Both the position numbers and the translations under genes were made by a program. From Alcaligenaceae bacterium (GTDB taxonomy: Bacteria; Pseudomonadota; Gammaproteobacteria; Burkholderiales; Burkholderiaceae_B), in NCBI GenBank assembly GCA_947378965.1, contig CANCMG010000007.1, positions 1 through 64,000 of the forward strand: a stretch of 64,000 nucleotides of DNA, given 5' to 3'. The first letter of the stretch is position 1. Each line of letters starts with the position of its first letter. The notes under the pieces are model-generated. The model had not been told where the DNA came from, made no database searches, and saw only the letters and a list, made by a program, of their open reading frames with translations. Below are positions 9,487 through 61,481 of the stretch, piece by piece.

Positions 9487-9548
9487 CTTGTTGTTGTACA
9501 ACCCTAGGTAGCTCAACACTAAGTCGCTCAACCCCAAGGCCTCACCCT

Positions 9549-38375: not shown

Positions 38376-38418
38376 AACTAAACGATCAACTAAACGATCA
38401 ACTAAACGATCAACTAAA
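38376..38418. repeat. 12-bp tandem repeat AACTAAACGATC, 3.6 copies
   Basis: Three perfect copies (38376, 38388, 38400) and a 7-bp partial copy, filling the 60-bp gap between the binding-protein stop codon and the next gene. Every copy contains TAA. Confidence 0.95.
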
Positions 38419-38428
38419 GAGCCCAGTC

Positions 38429-38812
38429 ATGATGGATGTTTTGTGGTGTGAGGCGTTGGCGATCAAGGTCAACGCCGATGAAAGATTGGTGTGGAGGGGG
38501 CGCCATGTCTCAACTTCATTTTTGTTGCAAGTGGATCAGGCTCAATACGTGATTCAGATTTTGGGCGGGCGTATTACCGAGGTAAAAAAAGGTCCGTTCC
38601 CCATTGCCGACTGGGTCTTTGCGTTGCGGGCAAGCGAGGCCGCTTGGGCCGAGTTTTTACAACCTATCCCCAAGCCTGGCTTTCATGACGTGATGGCGAT
38701 GCTTAAACTCAAGCACCTCAAGATGGAGGGCGATTTGTATCCCTTGATGTCGCATCTACTTTACTTCAAAGATGTTTTGGCAAGCGTGCGCGGTGAAGAG
38801 GTCGCATCGTGA
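38429..38812 (+). CDS. Small protein, SCP2-like fold suspected
   Basis: A 127-residue acidic-to-neutral protein without signal peptide. The pattern of a beta strand WRGRHVSTSFLLQV, then YVIQILGGRITEVKKGPFPIADWVFALRASEAAWAEFL and MLKLKHLKMEGDLYPLMSHLLYFKDVL resembles the SCP2 sterol-carrier-like fold (strand, 'DW.F.L.a..e.W..f', hydrophobic C-terminal helix), a lipid or CoA-ester binding fold. This is by eye and tentative. It overlaps the downstream hydrolase gene (GTGA), so the two products are translated together and probably work together. The start may be either of two adjacent ATG codons (38429, 38432). Confidence 0.65.
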   Translation: MMDVLWCEALAIKVNADERLVWRGRHVSTSFLLQVDQAQYVIQILGGRITEVKKGPFPIADWVFALRASEAAWAEFLQPIPKPGFHDVMAMLKLKHLKMEGDLYPLMSHLLYFKDVLASVRGEEVAS

Positions 38813-38874
38813 GTCAAAACAGCATAAGTCAAAACAGCAAGAATCAAGACAGCATGAGCCCTGACCGTATGAGC
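38809..38874 (+). repeat. 15-bp tandem repeat at the hydrolase start, 4.4 copies
   Basis: Units GTGAGTCAAAACAGC, ATAAGTCAAAACAGC, AAGAATCAAGACAGC, ATGAGCCCTGACCGT and a final ATGAGC. The first two agree at 13 of 15 positions; the fourth is strongly diverged. The repeat is in frame and adds about 20 residues to the protein. Confidence 0.75.
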
Positions 38875-39738
38875 GCGCAAGTGTTTGTAGAACCCATTGT
38901 CGGTCGCTATATGCACCTGACCTTAAACGGTCAAGCGCATCGAGTCTATTTCGAAGAGGCGGGCACCGGTGTGCCCTTGTTGTGCTTGCATACCGCAGGT
39001 GCCGATACGCGTCAGTATCGTGCGTTGATGAACGATAGCGAGTTGCTTAAACAATTTAGAGTGATTGCCTTTGATCTTCCTTGGCACGGTAAATCGTCGC
39101 CTCCAGAAGGTTGGCAAAACGGCACCTATCGCTTGTCGTCGCATGATTACACGCAGGCAATCTTAGCGGTTGCCGATGCGCTGCAACTGGATCAGCCGAT
39201 TGTGATGGGCTGCTCGATCGGCGGGCGAATTGTGCTGCACTTGGCGCTTGAACACCCCGAGCGTTTCGGTGCCGCGATTGGCTTGCAATCGGGCGCACAC
39301 GTCGAGCCGTACTACGACCTTGAGTGGTTACACCGCTCAGATGTGCACGGTGGCGAGATTGCGGCCGGAATCGTCTCTGGCTTAATCGGCCCCTTAAGCC
39401 CCGCGCAACACAAATGGGAAACCCTTTGGCATTACATGCAAGGTGGTCCCGGCGTGTTTAAAGGCGATCTGTTTTTCTATAACGCCGATGGCGATATTCG
39501 GGATCGCGTTAAGCAGATTGACACAAAAAAATGCCCGCTGTGGCTCTTGACGGGCGAATACGATTACTCGTGTACCCCAGAAGATACGGTGTTTTTAGGC
39601 AAGACGATTGAGGGAGTCAACTGGCAAATTATGCAGGGAATGGGGCATTTTCCAATGAGTGAAGATCCTGCAAAGTTTCTGACCTACCTCAAACCCGTCT
39701 TGCAAGCGGCCCTGCGCGCTCGCGCCTCAGCACCATAA
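38809..39738 (+). CDS. Alpha/beta hydrolase
   Basis: A 309-residue alpha/beta-fold hydrolase. The oxyanion region is LLCLHTAGADTRQYRAL, the nucleophile elbow is GCSIGGRIVLH (Ser in G-x-S-x-G), the acid is probably in LLTGEYDYSCTPED, and the catalytic His is in MQGMGHFPMSEDP. The GTG start overlaps the preceding stop (GTGA). The first 20 residues are an in-frame 5-residue repeat (MSQNS/ISQNS/KNQDS/MSPDR) made by four 15-bp repeat units; an ATG at 38869 just after the repeat begins MSAQVFVEPIVG and may be the ancestral start. Substrate unknown; C-C hydrolase, esterase or lactonase are possible. A terminator follows. Confidence 0.85.
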   Translation: MSQNSISQNSKNQDSMSPDRMSAQVFVEPIVGRYMHLTLNGQAHRVYFEEAGTGVPLLCLHTAGADTRQYRALMNDSELLKQFRVIAFDLPWHGKSSPPEGWQNGTYRLSSHDYTQAILAVADALQLDQPIVMGCSIGGRIVLHLALEHPERFGAAIGLQSGAHVEPYYDLEWLHRSDVHGGEIAAGIVSGLIGPLSPAQHKWETLWHYMQGGPGVFKGDLFFYNADGDIRDRVKQIDTKKCPLWLLTGEYDYSCTPEDTVFLGKTIEGVNWQIMQGMGHFPMSEDPAKFLTYLKPVLQAALRARASAP

Positions 39739-39791: not shown

Positions 39792-41363
39792 ATGAAAAAT
39801 TTACTGAATCGGCTGTGGATAGCAGCTTTGCTACCTCAGGCCACTCGCTGGCTTGTCTTAGGCACCGGCTTTTGGCTGGGGTGCTTGTCGTGGGTGCGGC
39901 ACTTGCACCTGCCCGACGAGGGGCGTTATGTGGGTGTGGCCTGGGATATGGCGCGCGCCGACAGCTTTTTAGTGCCTTTGATGAATGGCCTGCCTTATTT
40001 TCATAAGCCTCCGCTCTTTTATTGGCTCACTGATCTGTCGGTGCTAGTGTTCGGCGCGCACGAGTGGTCAGTGCGCATCCCGTCGTGGCTGGCGGCCTGG
40101 TCAAGCGCGATTGCCTTATATTTTTTTATACGCAAGCACCGCGGCCTTAAAAAGGCGACCTTGAGCTTAATCATCCTGTGCACCCTGCCCCTATTTTATG
40201 GCGGTGCGCAATACGCCAATTTGGATATGTTGGTTGCGGGCTTGATTTCACTCACGATTCTTGCCGGTGCAGAGGCGGTGTTGCGTAGTGAACAAGGTCT
40301 GCCCTACCGCTGGTTCTCGGTTGCAGCAGCAGTATTTGCCGGCTTGGCGATTTTGGCTAAAGGGTTGATCGGTTTGGCCTTGCCTGGTGGCGTTTTATTC
40401 TTTTGGTTACTGTTTACAACACGCTGGCGTAAGCTTGGCGTGTTGCTGTGGCCGCCTGCAATCGTCGCGTTTGTCGCGGTGACTTTGCCGTGGTTTTGGG
40501 CGATGCAGGTTAAGTTCCCCGAGTTTTTCAATTACTTTTTTATTCATCAACAATTCGAGCGCTTCGTGAGCCAGGGTTTTAACAACCCTCAGCCAGTTTG
40601 GTTCTATTTGCCTGTGCTGTTTGGCATGACGTTGCCGTGGTCGCTTGGTTTGCTAGTCGCGTTCAATCGTCGGTTTTGGCAAAACACCTTGCAGTCGTTT
40701 GGCTTATTGATGCTGATCTGGCTATTGCTGATTTTTATCTTTTTTTCGATCCCTGCCTCAAAGCTGATTGGCTATATTTTGCCGGCCTTGCCACCCTTGG
40801 CCGTGCTAAGCGCCGAAGCGTTGTTGTTGGCCTTGCAAGGTCGCTGGGCCGCGCACATCCCTCGAACGATTGCCACCTATTTTGTGATTGCAAGCGTGGC
40901 CTGCGTGATGGGGATGGGGGGATTTCGCTTTATTCAAACTGATACGGCCTACCGCATGGGCGCACAGATCGCTGCGCAAAAAAAACCGACCGACGTGTTT
41001 GTGTATGTGCGCAGTTATCCCTTTGATTTAGCGTTTTACGTGGGCGCCACTGAGCCTGCCTGGGTAGTCGAAAACTGGGAGAATCTTCCAAAGCGTGATA
41101 ACTGGCGCAACGAATTGGCCGATGCCGCACGCTTTAACCCAGAGGTGGGTAAGCAAACTCTCATCAATTTTAAAGAGTTTGTGGTGCGCCTGTGTGCGAG
41201 CGAACAAAGAGTATTTTGGGTACGTGGTGATCGGTGGATTATTCAGCATCTGCCTTTTTTGTCAGAGGTACCCCCCTTCTTTGAGCAGCCAGATGGCGGT
41301 CGGGTCTGGAAACTTGAAACCGATATCGCGTTTAAGGCTAAGCTCTGTAGTAAAGGTGAATAG
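39792..41363 (+). CDS. ArnT-like glycosyltransferase (GT-C, PMT_2 family)
   Basis: A 523-residue polytopic inner-membrane protein with about 11-12 hydrophobic segments and a soluble C-terminal part. The first periplasmic loop has the GT-C acidic motif HLPDEGRYVGVAWDM, and PYFHKPPLFYWLTDLSVLVFG is characteristic of ArnT/PMT_2 enzymes, which transfer a sugar from a polyprenyl-phosphate donor to lipid A or proteins in the periplasm. No undecaprenyl-phosphate-sugar synthesis genes are adjacent, so the donor is unknown. The C-terminal codons (AGTAAAGGTGAATAG) are themselves one unit of a 14-bp tandem repeat that continues past the stop. It is unrelated in function to its catabolic neighbours. Confidence 0.85.
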   Translation: MKNLLNRLWIAALLPQATRWLVLGTGFWLGCLSWVRHLHLPDEGRYVGVAWDMARADSFLVPLMNGLPYFHKPPLFYWLTDLSVLVFGAHEWSVRIPSWLAAWSSAIALYFFIRKHRGLKKATLSLIILCTLPLFYGGAQYANLDMLVAGLISLTILAGAEAVLRSEQGLPYRWFSVAAAVFAGLAILAKGLIGLALPGGVLFFWLLFTTRWRKLGVLLWPPAIVAFVAVTLPWFWAMQVKFPEFFNYFFIHQQFERFVSQGFNNPQPVWFYLPVLFGMTLPWSLGLLVAFNRRFWQNTLQSFGLLMLIWLLLIFIFFSIPASKLIGYILPALPPLAVLSAEALLLALQGRWAAHIPRTIATYFVIASVACVMGMGGFRFIQTDTAYRMGAQIAAQKKPTDVFVYVRSYPFDLAFYVGATEPAWVVENWENLPKRDNWRNELADAARFNPEVGKQTLINFKEFVVRLCASEQRVFWVRGDRWIIQHLPFLSEVPPFFEQPDGGRVWKLETDIAFKAKLCSKGE

Positions 41364-41419
41364 CTAAAGCCGAATAACCAAAGCCGAATCACCAAAGCCG
41401 AATCACTAAAGCTAAATAA
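41350..41419. repeat. 14-bp tandem repeat at the arnT-like stop codon, 5 copies
   Basis: GTAAAGGTGAATAG (the last codons and stop), CTAAAGCCGAATAA, CCAAAGCCGAATCA, CCAAAGCCGAATCA and CTAAAGCTAAATAA follow without gaps. The middle two are identical. The repeat thus begins in coding sequence and extends through the intergenic gap. Confidence 0.85.
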
Positions 41420-41453
41420 CTCACTAATTTGCTGCCTTTCCGGAGACTTGAGA

Positions 41454-43208
41454 ATGACAACCGAAGAAAAAAAACCAAACATTAAAACCCCCGAGTCTTT
41501 GCGCAGTGCACGCTGGTTTGCCCCCGATGACTTGCGCTCGTTTGGGCATCGCTCACGTGCCATGCAAATGGGCTACGGCCCCGAAGACTGGGCCGGTAAG
41601 CCAGTGATCGGTATTATTAATACCTGGTCTGATATCAATCCCTGCCATAGCCATTTCAAGCAACGCGTCGAAGACGTGAAGCGCGGTGTCTTGCAAGCAG
41701 GCGGGTTTCCAATTGAGCTGCCGGCGCAGTCTTTGGCCGAACAGTACGTTAAGCCCACCACGATGCTATACCGCAACTTGCTGGCGATGGACGTTGAAGA
41801 ACTCTTGCGCTGCCACCCGATCGACGGTGCGGTGCTGATGGGCGGGTGCGACAAGACCACGCCTGCGCTGTTGATGGGCGCTACCAGTGCCGGTCTGCCA
41901 ATGATTTACGTGCCGGCGGGCCCCATGTTGCGCGGTAACTGGCAGGGCAAAACGCTAGGCTCTGGCTCTGACGCCTGGAAGTTTTGGGACGATCGTCGTG
42001 CCGGCCTGATTAATCAAACGCAGTGGCTTGAGATCGAAGGCGGTATTGCGCGCAGTCATGGCACGTGTATGACGATGGGTACGGCCAGCACCATGACAGC
42101 GATTGCCGAGGCCCTTGGCATGACCCTGCCAGGCTTTTCGTCTGTTCCAGCACCCGATTCAAATCACATGCGCATGAGCGCCGAGTCGGGTCGTCGTATC
42201 GTCGAGATGGTCTGGGAAGACCTGACCCCGAACAAAATTCAAACCCATGCCGCCTTCGAGAATGCGATCGTGATCGCGATGGCGATGGGTTGCTCGACGA
42301 ATGCGATCATTCACGTGATTGCGCAAGCTAAGCGCGCAGGGTGTGACATTGGTCTTGACGATTTCGATCGCTTTAGCCGGATCGTTCCGGTGATCGCCAA
42401 CGTGCGCCCGAGCGGCGAACAGTATCTGATGGAAGACTTCTACTATGCAGGTGGTTTACCGGGCCTGATGACGCGTATCCCCCAGCACCTGCATCTGGAT
42501 GCTCTGACGGTCACTGGCAAAACTCTCGGTGAAAATATCGCGGGCGCAGGCGTCTATAACGATGACGTGATTCGCCCTGTCGATAATCCGATCTATGCCG
42601 AAGGCGCGCTAGCCGTGCTCAAAGGTAATCTGGCCCCCGATGGTTGCGTGATTAAGCCCAGCGCCTGCCCCGAGCATTTACACCGTCATACGGGCCCGGC
42701 GTTGGTTTTCGATGACTACCCATCCATGAAGGCCGTGATTGACAGCGACGATCTTGATGTGACTGCTGATCATGTTTTGATTTTGCGTAATGCTGGTCCG
42801 CAAGGCGGGCCCGGGATGCCCGAGTGGGGCATGTTGCCCATGCCTAAAAAACTGCTCAAGCAAGGTGTGCGCGATATGTTGCGCATGTCAGATGCGCGCA
42901 TGAGTGGCACAAGTTATGGCGCCTGCGTATTGCACATTTCGCCCGAGTCGTATGTCGGTGGCCCGTTAGCGCTAGTTAAAAATGGCGACATGATCTCGGT
43001 TGATGTACCCGCCCGCACGATTAACCTCGAGATTTCTGACGCCGAGATGGCAGCACGCAAAGCAGCTTGGAAAGCCCCTGAGCCTCGCTACGAGCGTGGC
43101 TATGGCTGGATGTTCTCTAAGCATATCGAGCAGGCCAATGAGGGCTGTGATTTTGATTTCTTGCGAACCGATTTTGGTGCGCCAGTGTCCGAACCCGACA
43201 TCTATTAA
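41454..43208 (+). CDS. IlvD/Edd family dehydratase, sugar-acid type
   Basis: A 584-residue iron-sulfur dehydratase. The three cluster cysteines are in NPCHSHF, GGCDKTTPA and HGTCMTMGTASTM; the last two segments plus WSDINPCHSHF are characteristic of L-arabinonate/D-xylonate-type dehydratases ([2Fe-2S]) rather than dihydroxy-acid dehydratase IlvD. The C-terminal part has DARMSGTSYGACVLHISPES (Mg/catalytic Ser region). It removes water from an aldonic acid to give a 2-keto-3-deoxy acid. GGAG lies 8 bp before ATG 41454. An RraA-family gene follows, and such proteins can act as aldolases on keto acids, so the pair may form a sugar-acid route. The sugar acid cannot be specified. Confidence 0.88.
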   Translation: MTTEEKKPNIKTPESLRSARWFAPDDLRSFGHRSRAMQMGYGPEDWAGKPVIGIINTWSDINPCHSHFKQRVEDVKRGVLQAGGFPIELPAQSLAEQYVKPTTMLYRNLLAMDVEELLRCHPIDGAVLMGGCDKTTPALLMGATSAGLPMIYVPAGPMLRGNWQGKTLGSGSDAWKFWDDRRAGLINQTQWLEIEGGIARSHGTCMTMGTASTMTAIAEALGMTLPGFSSVPAPDSNHMRMSAESGRRIVEMVWEDLTPNKIQTHAAFENAIVIAMAMGCSTNAIIHVIAQAKRAGCDIGLDDFDRFSRIVPVIANVRPSGEQYLMEDFYYAGGLPGLMTRIPQHLHLDALTVTGKTLGENIAGAGVYNDDVIRPVDNPIYAEGALAVLKGNLAPDGCVIKPSACPEHLHRHTGPALVFDDYPSMKAVIDSDDLDVTADHVLILRNAGPQGGPGMPEWGMLPMPKKLLKQGVRDMLRMSDARMSGTSYGACVLHISPESYVGGPLALVKNGDMISVDVPARTINLEISDAEMAARKAAWKAPEPRYERGYGWMFSKHIEQANEGCDFDFLRTDFGAPVSEPDIY

Positions 43209-43352
43209 GCGAGATCCTCGACGAGCACTTTTAACTTGATATTTATTAGGCGGGATGCTCGACGAGCACTCTGAACTTAATATTTATTAAGCGAGATGCT
43301 CGACGAGTACTCTGAACCCGATTACTACTAAGCGAGATCCAAAATGAGCACT
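43209..43352. repeat. 41-bp tandem repeat filling the dehydratase-RraA gap
   Basis: Copies start at 43209, 43250, 43291 and 43332 (GCGAGATCC, GCGGGATGC, GCGAGATGC, GCGAGATCC), exactly 41 bp apart. The fourth copy contains the RraA start codon (AAAATGAGCACTCT); the first three have GACGAG(C/T)ACT in its place. The unit end (CTGAACCCGATTACTACTAA) matches the end of the dehydratase gene (CCGAACCCGACATCTATTAA). Confidence 0.92.
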
Positions 43353-44063
43353 CTTAAGCCCGAGACCCGCGAAAAACTGCTGGGGATTAGCACGGCCACA
43401 TTAGCGACTTGCCTGTTTAAGCGTGGCTTGCGCAATCAGTTTATTCAAGGCGTGCAGCGTTTATCAAAGTCCACCAAGAACATGGTGGGCGAGGCTTACA
43501 CGCTGCGCTATATCCCTGCGCGTGAAGATCTCAACACCATGGAGGTCTTTAAAGATCGCAGCCATCCACAGCGTAAAGGCATTAACGAATGCCCAGAAGG
43601 TGCTGTGTTTGTGATTGATAGCCGTAAAGATGCACGCGCTGCCTCGGCAGGTGGCATTTTGGTGGGGCGCCTGATGGCTCGCGGGGTGGCCGGTGTTGTG
43701 ACGGACGGTGGCTTTCGTGATTCGGCTGAAATCGCAGAGCTCGGCATCCCAGCCTATCATCAACGCCCGTCAGCGCCTACCAACCTAACCTTGCATCACG
43801 CGATTGACGTGAATGTGCCAATTGCTTGCGGCGACGCGCCAGTGTTTCCGGGTGACGTGATGGTTGGTGATGGTGATGGCGTGATTGTGTTGCCGGCACA
43901 TCTGGCAGATGAATTGGCAGCCGAAGCGTTTGAAATGACGATTTTTGAAGACTTTGCGACAGAAGAGGTGAGGGGTGGCCGCTCGATTATGGGCTTGTAT
44001 CCCAATACCGACCCGCAAACGACGGTTGATTTTCAGGCCTGGCGCAAAAGGACTGGCCGTTGA
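43344..44063 (+). CDS. RraA family protein (possible hydroxymethylglutarate-type aldolase)
   Basis: A 239-residue member of the RraA/MenG-like fold. The family core is AGGILVGRLMARGVAGVVTDGGFRDSAEIAELGIP, where Arg and Asp of FRD are metal and substrate ligands in HMG/CHA aldolases; GDGDGVIVLP is the second conserved block. E. coli RraA (about 161 residues) inhibits RNase E; this protein is longer by about 80 residues and sits beside a dehydratase, so a keto-acid aldolase or decarboxylase role is more likely than RNase regulation (inference). The ATG is inside the last 41-bp repeat unit, about 9 bp after GAGATCC. A hairpin CCCCA/TGGGG without a T tract follows. Confidence 0.85.
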   Translation: MSTLKPETREKLLGISTATLATCLFKRGLRNQFIQGVQRLSKSTKNMVGEAYTLRYIPAREDLNTMEVFKDRSHPQRKGINECPEGAVFVIDSRKDARAASAGGILVGRLMARGVAGVVTDGGFRDSAEIAELGIPAYHQRPSAPTNLTLHHAIDVNVPIACGDAPVFPGDVMVGDGDGVIVLPAHLADELAAEAFEMTIFEDFATEEVRGGRSIMGLYPNTDPQTTVDFQAWRKRTGR

Positions 44064-58718: not shown

Positions 58719-61481
58719 TCAAAGCTGCAGTTTTTTAAGTTGATATAACGCCTCAAGCGCCTCGCGCGGACTTAAGGTATCAGGGTCAAGGGCAGCCAAA
58801 GCCTGTTGCAAAGCCTCTTGCGCTTCGCTGATTTCAGCCGCAGCAGCGGCTTGCGCCTCGGCATCCACCACTTCGCCAAACAGCCCGAGTTGCGCCGTCG
58901 GCGCACCTTGCGCTTCAAGCCGCTCAAGCTCGCGCGTCGCGTGGCGAATCACCGCCTGTGGGATACCCGCACGTTGCGCGACTTGAATCCCGTAGCTGCG
59001 GCTGGCAGGGCCATCTTTGACCTCGTGTAAAAACACAATACCTGAGGGTGATTCGGCCGCAGCAAGATGCACGTTAGCAGTATTCGCTTGCTCGCTAGGC
59101 ATCCGGGTGATTTCAAAATAGTGCGTCGCAAATAGCGTCAGTGCACGGTTATGCGTGACCAAGCGTTGCGCAATCGACCAGGCCAAGGCTAAGCCATCAT
59201 AGGTCGAGGTACCGCGCCCAATCTCATCCATCAGCACCAAACTTTGCGCTGAACTCGAAGCCAAAATAGCCGCCGCTTCAATCATCTCCATCATAAAGGT
59301 CGAGCGCCCGCCGGCTAAATCATCGGCTGCGCCAATACGTGTAAAGATCCGATCAAGCGGCCCAATCGAAGCGCTTTGCGCGGGAACAAAGCTGCCGACG
59401 CGCGCTAATAGTGCGATGAGCGCAACCTGCCGCATGTAGGTTGATTTGCCGCCCATATTCGGGCCGGTAATCACAAGCAAAGCGCGGTGCGGATTTAACG
59501 AACAACTGTTTGGTGTAAAGCGTTCGATCGCGCGCTCAACCACGGGGTGACGACCCAAAGTGATTTCAATGGCTGTGTGCGCAAGCAGTGTTGGTGCCAC
59601 CCATTGATGATGCTGGGCGTGATGTGCCAGTGAAACCAACGCGTCAAGTTCAGCGCAGGCTGCGGCGCACTGCGCCAGTTGTTTGACTTGCGCAGTGAGT
59701 TGCTCAAGCAATTGCTCGAACAGCCATTTTTCGCGGGCAAGCGAACGGTCTTGTGCGGATAAGACTTTGTCTTCCCAGGATTTGAGTTCGGGCGTGATGT
59801 AGCGTTCGGCGTTTTTAAGTGTCTGGCGCCGACGGTAATCATCAGGCACTTTTTCGGACTGTGCGCGACTGACTTCAATAAAAAATCCGTGCACGCGATT
59901 AAATTCAACCCGTAGCGTGGCGATGCCTGTGCGGGCGCGTTCGCGCGCTTCAAGCTCAAGTAAAAAGGCGCCGTTATCGGTTGAGATTGCGCGCAGCTCA
60001 TCAAGCTCTGCATCAAAGCCCGTGGCGATCACGCCGCCGTCACGCGCTAAGGCGGCGGGTTCTAAGGAAATGGCGCGCGTTAATAACTCTTGCAAGCCTT
60101 CGGGTGGGGTGAGGGCTTGTGCGAGAGCTTGCAAGCGTAGTGTGGTGTTCGTTACATTCGCTTGAGTTGTTGCATACGTGGAATGCGCATGCTCTTGTTG
60201 TAATGCAGTAGCAGAGTGAACCGACGGTGGCGCTGCTTCAGCAGTTGTTAAAAGTTCAGACGCCTGCGATGGTGTCAGCGCTGAAAGCACTTGCTGCTGC
60301 ACCGCCGGTAACGCGCTTAAGGCATCACGCAAGCTGGCAAGTTCGCGCGGGCGTACTGACAGCAGCGCAATACGCGTAGCGATACGTTCAAGATCGGGTA
60401 GCTTGTTAAGTTCAGTGCGCAGTACTTGAAGTAGTGGCTTGGCGTGCAGCAATTCACTGCGCTGCGCACTGGCCGCCATCAAACTGCCGATTGCCTGTTG
60501 TCGCTCAAGCACCGGCGCATTGTCACGCAAGGGGTGATGCAACCACCTGCGCAACAACCGGCTGCCCATCGGGGTGCAACAGTTATCCAAAATCGAAAAT
60601 AAAGTGGGTGCTTCTTCACCAGAAAGAGTACGCGTTAACTCAAGATTGCGACGCGTCGCTGGGTCCATCAATACGTACTGACTTGCCCGATCGGCCACCA
60701 GCGTCTGCACATGCGATAGCGCGTGCGCCTGAGTGCGCCCCGCGTAACGTAATAACGCCCCAGCCGCGCATAACGCAGTGGGTAGATCATCCACATCAAA
60801 GCCTGAAAGCGATTCAGTTTTAAAGTGCGCCAGCAGATGCGCCTGGGCCTGCTCGGCCTCAAAATGCCAGGGTGGTATCTTAGTGGCTGCGCAATGCAGC
60901 GTTAGATCAAGTTGTGCATCGTCGGCAAGAATGATTTCGGCGGGATCAATGCGGTGCAGTTCAGAATCAAGCGCTTCAGCGGCGCACTCAGAAAGCTTGA
61001 ATTCGCCGCTTGCCAGATTCAGCCAGGCCACGCCAGCGCGTTGCGCCTTATTACCTTTGCGTGGCACAAACACTGCGGCCACACAGCGATCGGCCTTTGA
61101 GGGTAACAACGCTTCGTCAGTGAGTGTGCCCGGCGTAACAATACGCACGATCTTGCGCTCGACTGGGCCTTTACTTGTGGCGGGGTCACCAATTTGCTCG
61201 CAGATCGCTACCGAGACACCTTGCGCAACCAACTTAGCCAAGTATTGCTCGGCTGCGTGGTACGGCAAGCCTGCCATCGGGATGGGCACCCCATTTGACG
61301 ACCCACGCCGCGTGAGCGTTAAACCCAGCAGCTTCGCACCGCGCTCAGCGTCTTCATAAAACATCTCATAGAAGTCACCCATGCGGTAAAGCAGCAGCAA
61401 CGGCCCGGCCTCAGCCTTCAGACGCAGGTATTGCTGCATCATCGGTGTGTGTTCGGCTAGTTCTTTTTCAGGCAGAGTCAA
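58719..61481 (-). CDS. mutS: DNA mismatch repair protein MutS
   Basis: MutS recognises base mismatches and recruits MutL. The 920-residue protein has the mismatch-reading Phe-x-Glu in [20 protein letters not shown], the connector and lever domains, Walker [21 protein letters not shown], Walker [23 protein letters not shown] and the C-terminal dimer region. It is longer than E. coli MutS (853), partly through Ala/Gln-rich linkers. The start is a TTG: relatives also begin a few residues before HTPMMQQYL and no ATG lies nearer; GGA is about 9 bp upstream. A toxin-antitoxin pair lies 52 bp upstream on the same strand. Confidence 0.96.

Follow-up and report, generated by a model that had tools for sequence, protein, structure and literature searches.

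VNTR loci are used in MLVA typing, and one publication ranks them as the smallest kind of variable segment (PMC2884548). In Borgs, the units of all genic tandem repeats are divisible by three, as are those of 14-38% of the intergenic ones (Schoelmerich et al., 2023; PMC9879509). More than 4 satellites per Mb have been counted in 18 of 119 bacteria, at a rate that varies strongly among species (Subirana and Messeguer, 2019; PMC6749651), and in lake planctomycetes intergenic tandem repeats lie behind structural variants (PMC9426551). The locus described here belongs to a lineage for which topic searches of the literature found no published report of tandem repeats, either in the genus or in the GKS98 cluster. 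Sheuella amnicola NBD-18 and Zwartia panacis KCTC 42751 are members of this freshwater cluster of Alcaligenaceae (PMC10535154), and we infer that the genus of the genome studied here takes in both species.

The array stands at the 5’ end of an alpha/beta-hydrolase gene in a window of 64,000 nucleotides, the whole stretch of DNA that was analysed, which comes from a 4.5-Mb draft genome in 189 contigs (G000; coordinates refer to the forward strand unless stated otherwise). Ahead of ATG 38869, and in frame with the hydrolase, four 15-bp units (38809-38868) encode V/MSQNS-ISQNS-KNQDS-MSPDR, followed by MSAQVFVEP; the original prediction had described the units, their frame, their peptide and three candidate start codons correctly. 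Unit 1 (GTGAGTCAAAACAGC, 38809-38823) holds the likely start codon, GTG 38809, and has the same sequence in five of the six array-bearing species. Unit 2 (ATAAGTCAAAACAGC, ISQNS, 38824-38838) is identical to it at 13 of 15 positions, and unit 3 (AAGAATCAAGACAGC, KNQDS, 38839-38853) matches units 1 and 2 at 11 of 15; the orthologous form of unit 3 is KSHDS in G019, G024, G043 and G007. The most diverged copy, unit 4 (ATGAGCCCTGACCGT, MSPDR, 38854-38868), is directly followed by ATGAGCGCGCAAGTG from 38869 and shares 8 of 15 positions with units 1-3, a weak repeat at the DNA level. Its orthologous copies, which read MSHDS, MSHDH and MGHDG, show that it is a genuine unit, and the lone MSHDA unit of G018 looks like its homologue.

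Tandem Repeats Finder (TRF) reports this array at 38812-38855 with a period of 15, 2.9 copies and a score of 60. Arrays scoring at least 60 averaged 0.1 per 64 kb in 60 dinucleotide-preserving shuffles of the window, against five in the real window, and a chance origin was rejected on these grounds. A dispersed repeat family was also rejected: exact occurrences of the 13-base unit core are confined to the array genome-wide, so the array is local and not a dispersed element. With head-to-tail units in the range of about 10-100 bp that occur above chance, and with exact-unit differences in number among the genomes of different species, the hydrolase 5’ array is a true minisatellite. It is not unique, as many comparable short repeats sit at gene borders in this lineage.

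Unit numbers were compared between species, each represented by one genome and mostly by a metagenome bin. Within the genus, three sister species have no unit (G006, G041 and G009), one has a single unit (G018), four have four (G000, G019, G024 and G004), one has five (G007) and one has six (G043). The hydrolase N-terminus reads VSQNS-ISQNS-KSHDS-MSHDH in G019, MSQNG-IGQNS-KSHDS-MGHDG in G024 and VSQNS-TSQNS-IGQNS-MSHDS in G004, and in G007 the unit directly 5’ of MSAQ is KSHDS, without an ATG. Anchored flanking genes are spaced 8, 23, 68, 83 or 98 bp apart, in 15-bp steps throughout. The original prediction of an in-frame amplification beside the start, lengthening the N-terminus, is borne out by these relatives with 0, 1, 4, 5 and 6 units. 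A conserved repeat-free N-terminus of the same length had been named as evidence against it, and the repeat-free N-termini of relatives (MSKAVWIEP, MSTAVWIEP and MTSRVLIEP) are shorter. In a tree built from the repeat-free part of the gene, the six species with at least four units form one clade (support 91/91), and G018 and G009 fall below this clade without firm support. The simplest history would begin with one early unit, followed by expansion in the common ancestor of these six species and by later gains and losses. As at VNTR loci, units of 10-100 bp stand head to tail, lengths differ by exact units, many arrays are intergenic and coding ones are in frame; unlike at those loci, the variation seen here is among species rather than strains, and arrays in this clade are frequent at gene junctions. 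Close relatives of the hydrolase are also encoded by metagenome bins titled ‘Bordetella parapertussis’ (L061, L067, L093, L097, L100, L103, L113 and L119); on environmental bins these titles look like naming errors, and L061 and L067 belong to the genus studied here.

The hydrolase gene (38809-39738) encodes 309 residues, with the fold beginning at about residue 30. Its product matches PF00561 with 66.5 bits (cut-off 25.8) as well as PF12697, and carries a putative GxSxG nucleophile motif (GCSIGG, residues 134-139) and a putative catalytic His, H280, which are invariant in 23 aligned sequences and point to an alpha/beta-hydrolase fold. The first invariant position of this alignment is E28. An AlphaFold2 model built from the same 23 sequences assigns residues 1-17 a pLDDT below 50 and places the first strand at residue 30; its mean pLDDT is just 71.8, and it was used for the broad outline alone. 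The N-terminal tail is predicted to be disordered and to lie outside the hydrolase fold. By model and alignment together, the fold has no need of the tail, with which some orthologues dispense. A second hydrolase copy (G000:C1:29991-30821), 58% identical and present in most relatives too, has a reading frame of about 285 residues, too short for a repeat tail.

Translation most likely starts at GTG 38809. This codon is overlapped by the TGA (38810-38812) of an upstream gene of 127 aa (38429-38812) that has no match in Pfam or NCBIfam, although both its 3’ end and the overlap into the hydrolase gene are conserved throughout the genus. A Shine-Dalgarno sequence, GAAGAGG (38795-38801), lies 7 nt 5’ of GTG 38809 and has an anti-Shine-Dalgarno duplex of -6.5 kcal/mol, and a GTGA or ATGA start/stop overlap is found in every aligned orthologue, with or without the array. 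Were ATG 38869 (or 38854) the true start, the array would be an untranslated leader or spacer; in favour of this reading, all array-bearing species have MSAQ or MNAQ, and initiation is stronger at AUG than at GUG. However, the original prediction’s alternative starts at these two codons found no backing, as neither is preceded by a good Shine-Dalgarno sequence (duplexes of -0.7 kcal/mol at 38854 and -1.9 kcal/mol at 38869), ATG 38854 is not conserved, being missing in G007, and array-free species, too, conserve the start that overlaps the upstream stop. In addition, all copy changes are multiples of three, the array holds no stop codon, and its substitutions follow a coding pattern, with pS 0.58 and pN 0.14 (corrected ratio 0.14) against 0.41 and 0.022 in the gene body (ratio 0.04); the array values draw on about 8 synonymous sites per pair, on non-independent pairs and on an assumed unit-by-unit homology between species. 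Small as the sample is, this is the pattern expected of a translated segment under relaxed constraint. We favour GTG 38809 because it has the sole good ribosome-binding site, a conserved position and coding-type substitutions in the array behind it, and we regard an internal start as improbable. Since the overlap is fixed in the aligned orthologues, copy number alters the sequence 3’ of the first start codon alone. Copy-number changes thus affect the N-terminus, as had been anticipated, and the further proposal, a start displaced from the upstream stop, found no support: the overlap never moves. Tandem arrays close to start codons act as phase-variation switches in some pathogens, and a contingency locus that turns the hydrolase on and off might be imagined here. 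Gain or loss of 15 bp leaves the reading frame as it was, however; no frame change is seen in any species, the start is fixed at the overlap, and the units of G000 have diverged (8-13 of 15 positions identical), which would lower the slippage rate. Such switching is very improbable in our judgement. Finally, the draft state of the 189-contig genome and the proneness of assemblies to error at tandem arrays would speak for an artefact or chance, but this is hardly credible given diverged units, an array in six independently assembled species and a frequency of 0.1 per 64 kb in the shuffles.

Another reading gives the array a role in expression, in which an unstructured 5’ coding tract would boost initiation and offset the weaker GTG, with copy number under selection. 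Over the span from -25 to +45, predicted folding energies are -8.0 to -12.6 kcal/mol for the six species that have at least four units, against -18.0 to -24.4 kcal/mol for the four that have none or one; a GTG start is confined to array-bearing species (five of the six), and unit 1 is nearly invariant. These species form a single clade, however, and represent effectively one evolutionary event. The median over the same span for ORFs of the window is -11.3 kcal/mol, so the array species are ordinary in this respect, and a strong or unusual mRNA effect was rejected, array genes folding like average window ORFs. Moreover, G024 combines the array with an ATG start, and the first unit alone can affect initiation, which leaves units 2 to 6 unexplained. 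A tuning role of the array is possible from the folding predictions, yet we think it unlikely to account for the locus. Because unit 1 is unusually conserved and the start structure is weaker in array genes, selection on initiation may act to some degree.

Further arrays lie at nearby junctions. A 12-bp minisatellite detected by TRF (38376-38418) occupies the spacer 5’ of the 127-aa gene, which measures 60 bp in G000, 36 bp in G019 and 24 bp in G024, G043, G004 and G018. A 14-bp minisatellite, also detected by TRF (41358-41420), lies 3’ of a PMT-like gene; the spacer between that gene and the following dehydratase gene is 69, 97, 111 and 125 bp long in G004, G000, G007 and G019, respectively, in 14-bp steps, and 96 bp long in G043. 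The dehydratase (41448-43208) is IlvD-like by similarity and, at 1090.5 bits, exceeds the cut-off of the L-arabinonate dehydratase model NF009559. A 41-bp minisatellite (43203-43354) spans its stop and the beginning of the gene that follows, at a junction of 152 bp in G000, 111 bp in G043 and G007, and 29 bp in five more relatives (41-bp steps). Within 43191-43354, the segment repeated by the 41-bp array takes in the region of the dehydratase stop, together with degenerate copies (ACGAGCACT) of the start (ATGAGCACT) of that following gene. A weaker 15-bp array (9499-9532) measures 34 bp in G000 and 19 bp in G004, a difference of one unit. The spacer between the hydrolase and PMT-like genes was examined and is without repeats.

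Pooled over the six array species, 123 arrays were found in 1.23 Mb sampled (100/Mb), against 10 in 0.45 Mb sampled from other members of the genus (22/Mb) and 3 in 0.14 Mb at the same locus in other Alcaligenaceae (22/Mb); these densities come from sampled draft stretches, some of them from short contigs, with smaller samples for the relatives and a slight bias toward the array clade through inclusion of the window and its homologous regions. By species, the density per Mb was 133 in G043, 119 in G000, 86 in G019, 76 in G007, 65 in G004 and 61 in G024. Loci outside the Alcaligenaceae (L070-L140) proved a poor density control, with 71 arrays/Mb, mostly coding; of their 33 arrays, many of them in Bradyrhizobium, 8 were mostly noncoding. 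Genes were called as longest ORFs, without a trained caller. On this basis, 40 of the 55 arrays in G000 cross or sit in noncoding DNA; arrays placed at random do so in 10.9 cases on average and in at most 21 in 2000 trials. A period divisible by three is found in 41 of the 46 arrays that lie wholly in coding sequence, against 21 of the 70 that are mostly noncoding (Fisher p = 1.3e-10, a value that counts non-independent cases, arrays being partly shared by descent within the clade). Given this concentration at gene boundaries and the multiple-of-three coding periods, tandem duplication appears to strike broadly, and the survivors to be those arrays that leave the reading frame intact.

By analogy, the tandem repeats of Borgs would be the closest counterpart of this array set. 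Both comprise many independent arrays, intergenic as well as genic, of which the coding ones give disordered repeat segments. The Borg pattern of genic units divisible by three and unconstrained intergenic units recurs here, with 41 of 46 genic arrays against all in Borgs, and 30% of intergenic arrays (21 of 70) against 14-38%. In contrast, Borgs are archaeal and extrachromosomal and their units perfect, whereas the arrays here are bacterial and chromosomal, have diverged units and share no sequence; the contig of the hydrolase array carries mutS and other genes of a chromosomal type. Under a rough imitation of the satellite rule, not the original program, we counted about 11 per Mb in G000, 18 per Mb in G043 and none in G004 or the rest of the genus sampled. 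Like the satellites of Subirana and Messeguer, these are arrays of at least 10 bp at a species-dependent rate, and their density is notable or high compared with that survey (PMC6749651), neither extreme nor extraordinary. Lake planctomycetes are likewise freshwater plankton, and their intergenic tandem repeats are tied to deletions, with slippage proposed; unlike the species here, they belong to a different phylum, and their variants were seen inside populations with long reads. For the repair genes tested, loss was rejected as the cause of the clade excess: G000 has MutS, MutL, RecJ and XseA, and loss of SbcD does not discriminate, the protein being absent in 11 of 11 genomes tested, array-poor ones included. 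MutS of G000 and G004 (58719-61481, minus strand) has, around residue 415-450, an additional low-complexity stretch of about 20-30 residues with no counterpart in G006, and the profile match is also split in two at this point in the other array-bearing species as well as in G018 and G041. This stretch may be another in-frame insertion; its association with the array excess is so far no more than a coincidence.

We are fairly confident that the hydrolase array is a translated coding minisatellite, grown by slippage and tolerated, and one case of a clade-wide process that forms arrays at junctions and protein tails. The array would have been founded when a 15-bp segment at the gene’s 5’ end was duplicated in tandem, and would have expanded by replication slippage or unequal exchange, its copies then diverging and turning over; we infer that slippage was the mutational mechanism and that changes in array length are nearly neutral. 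Translation from GTG 38809 would yield a flexible tail of 5-residue repeats. The array would persist because 15 bp are frame-neutral, the overlap of start codon and upstream stop is fixed at its 5’ edge, and the tail lies outside the fold. More broadly, short tandem arrays would build up wherever this freshwater clade of Alcaligenaceae tolerates a change in length, at gene junctions and in in-frame tails. It is a tentative and rather doubtful extension that a clade-specific raised rate of short tandem duplication remodels junctions genome-wide, as a chromosomal counterpart of Borg repeats; if that were true, unit steps would change intercistronic spacers and protein ends. The 0, 1, 4, 5 and 6 units of the sister species offer dated intermediates of the growth of a protein end, in which in-frame duplication lengthens the protein while an overlapping start/stop pair stays undisturbed. 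Should the clade excess prove true in complete genomes, these species would lend themselves well to studying what determines how often tandem duplications arise in bacteria, and whether changes in junction length affect the expression of operons.
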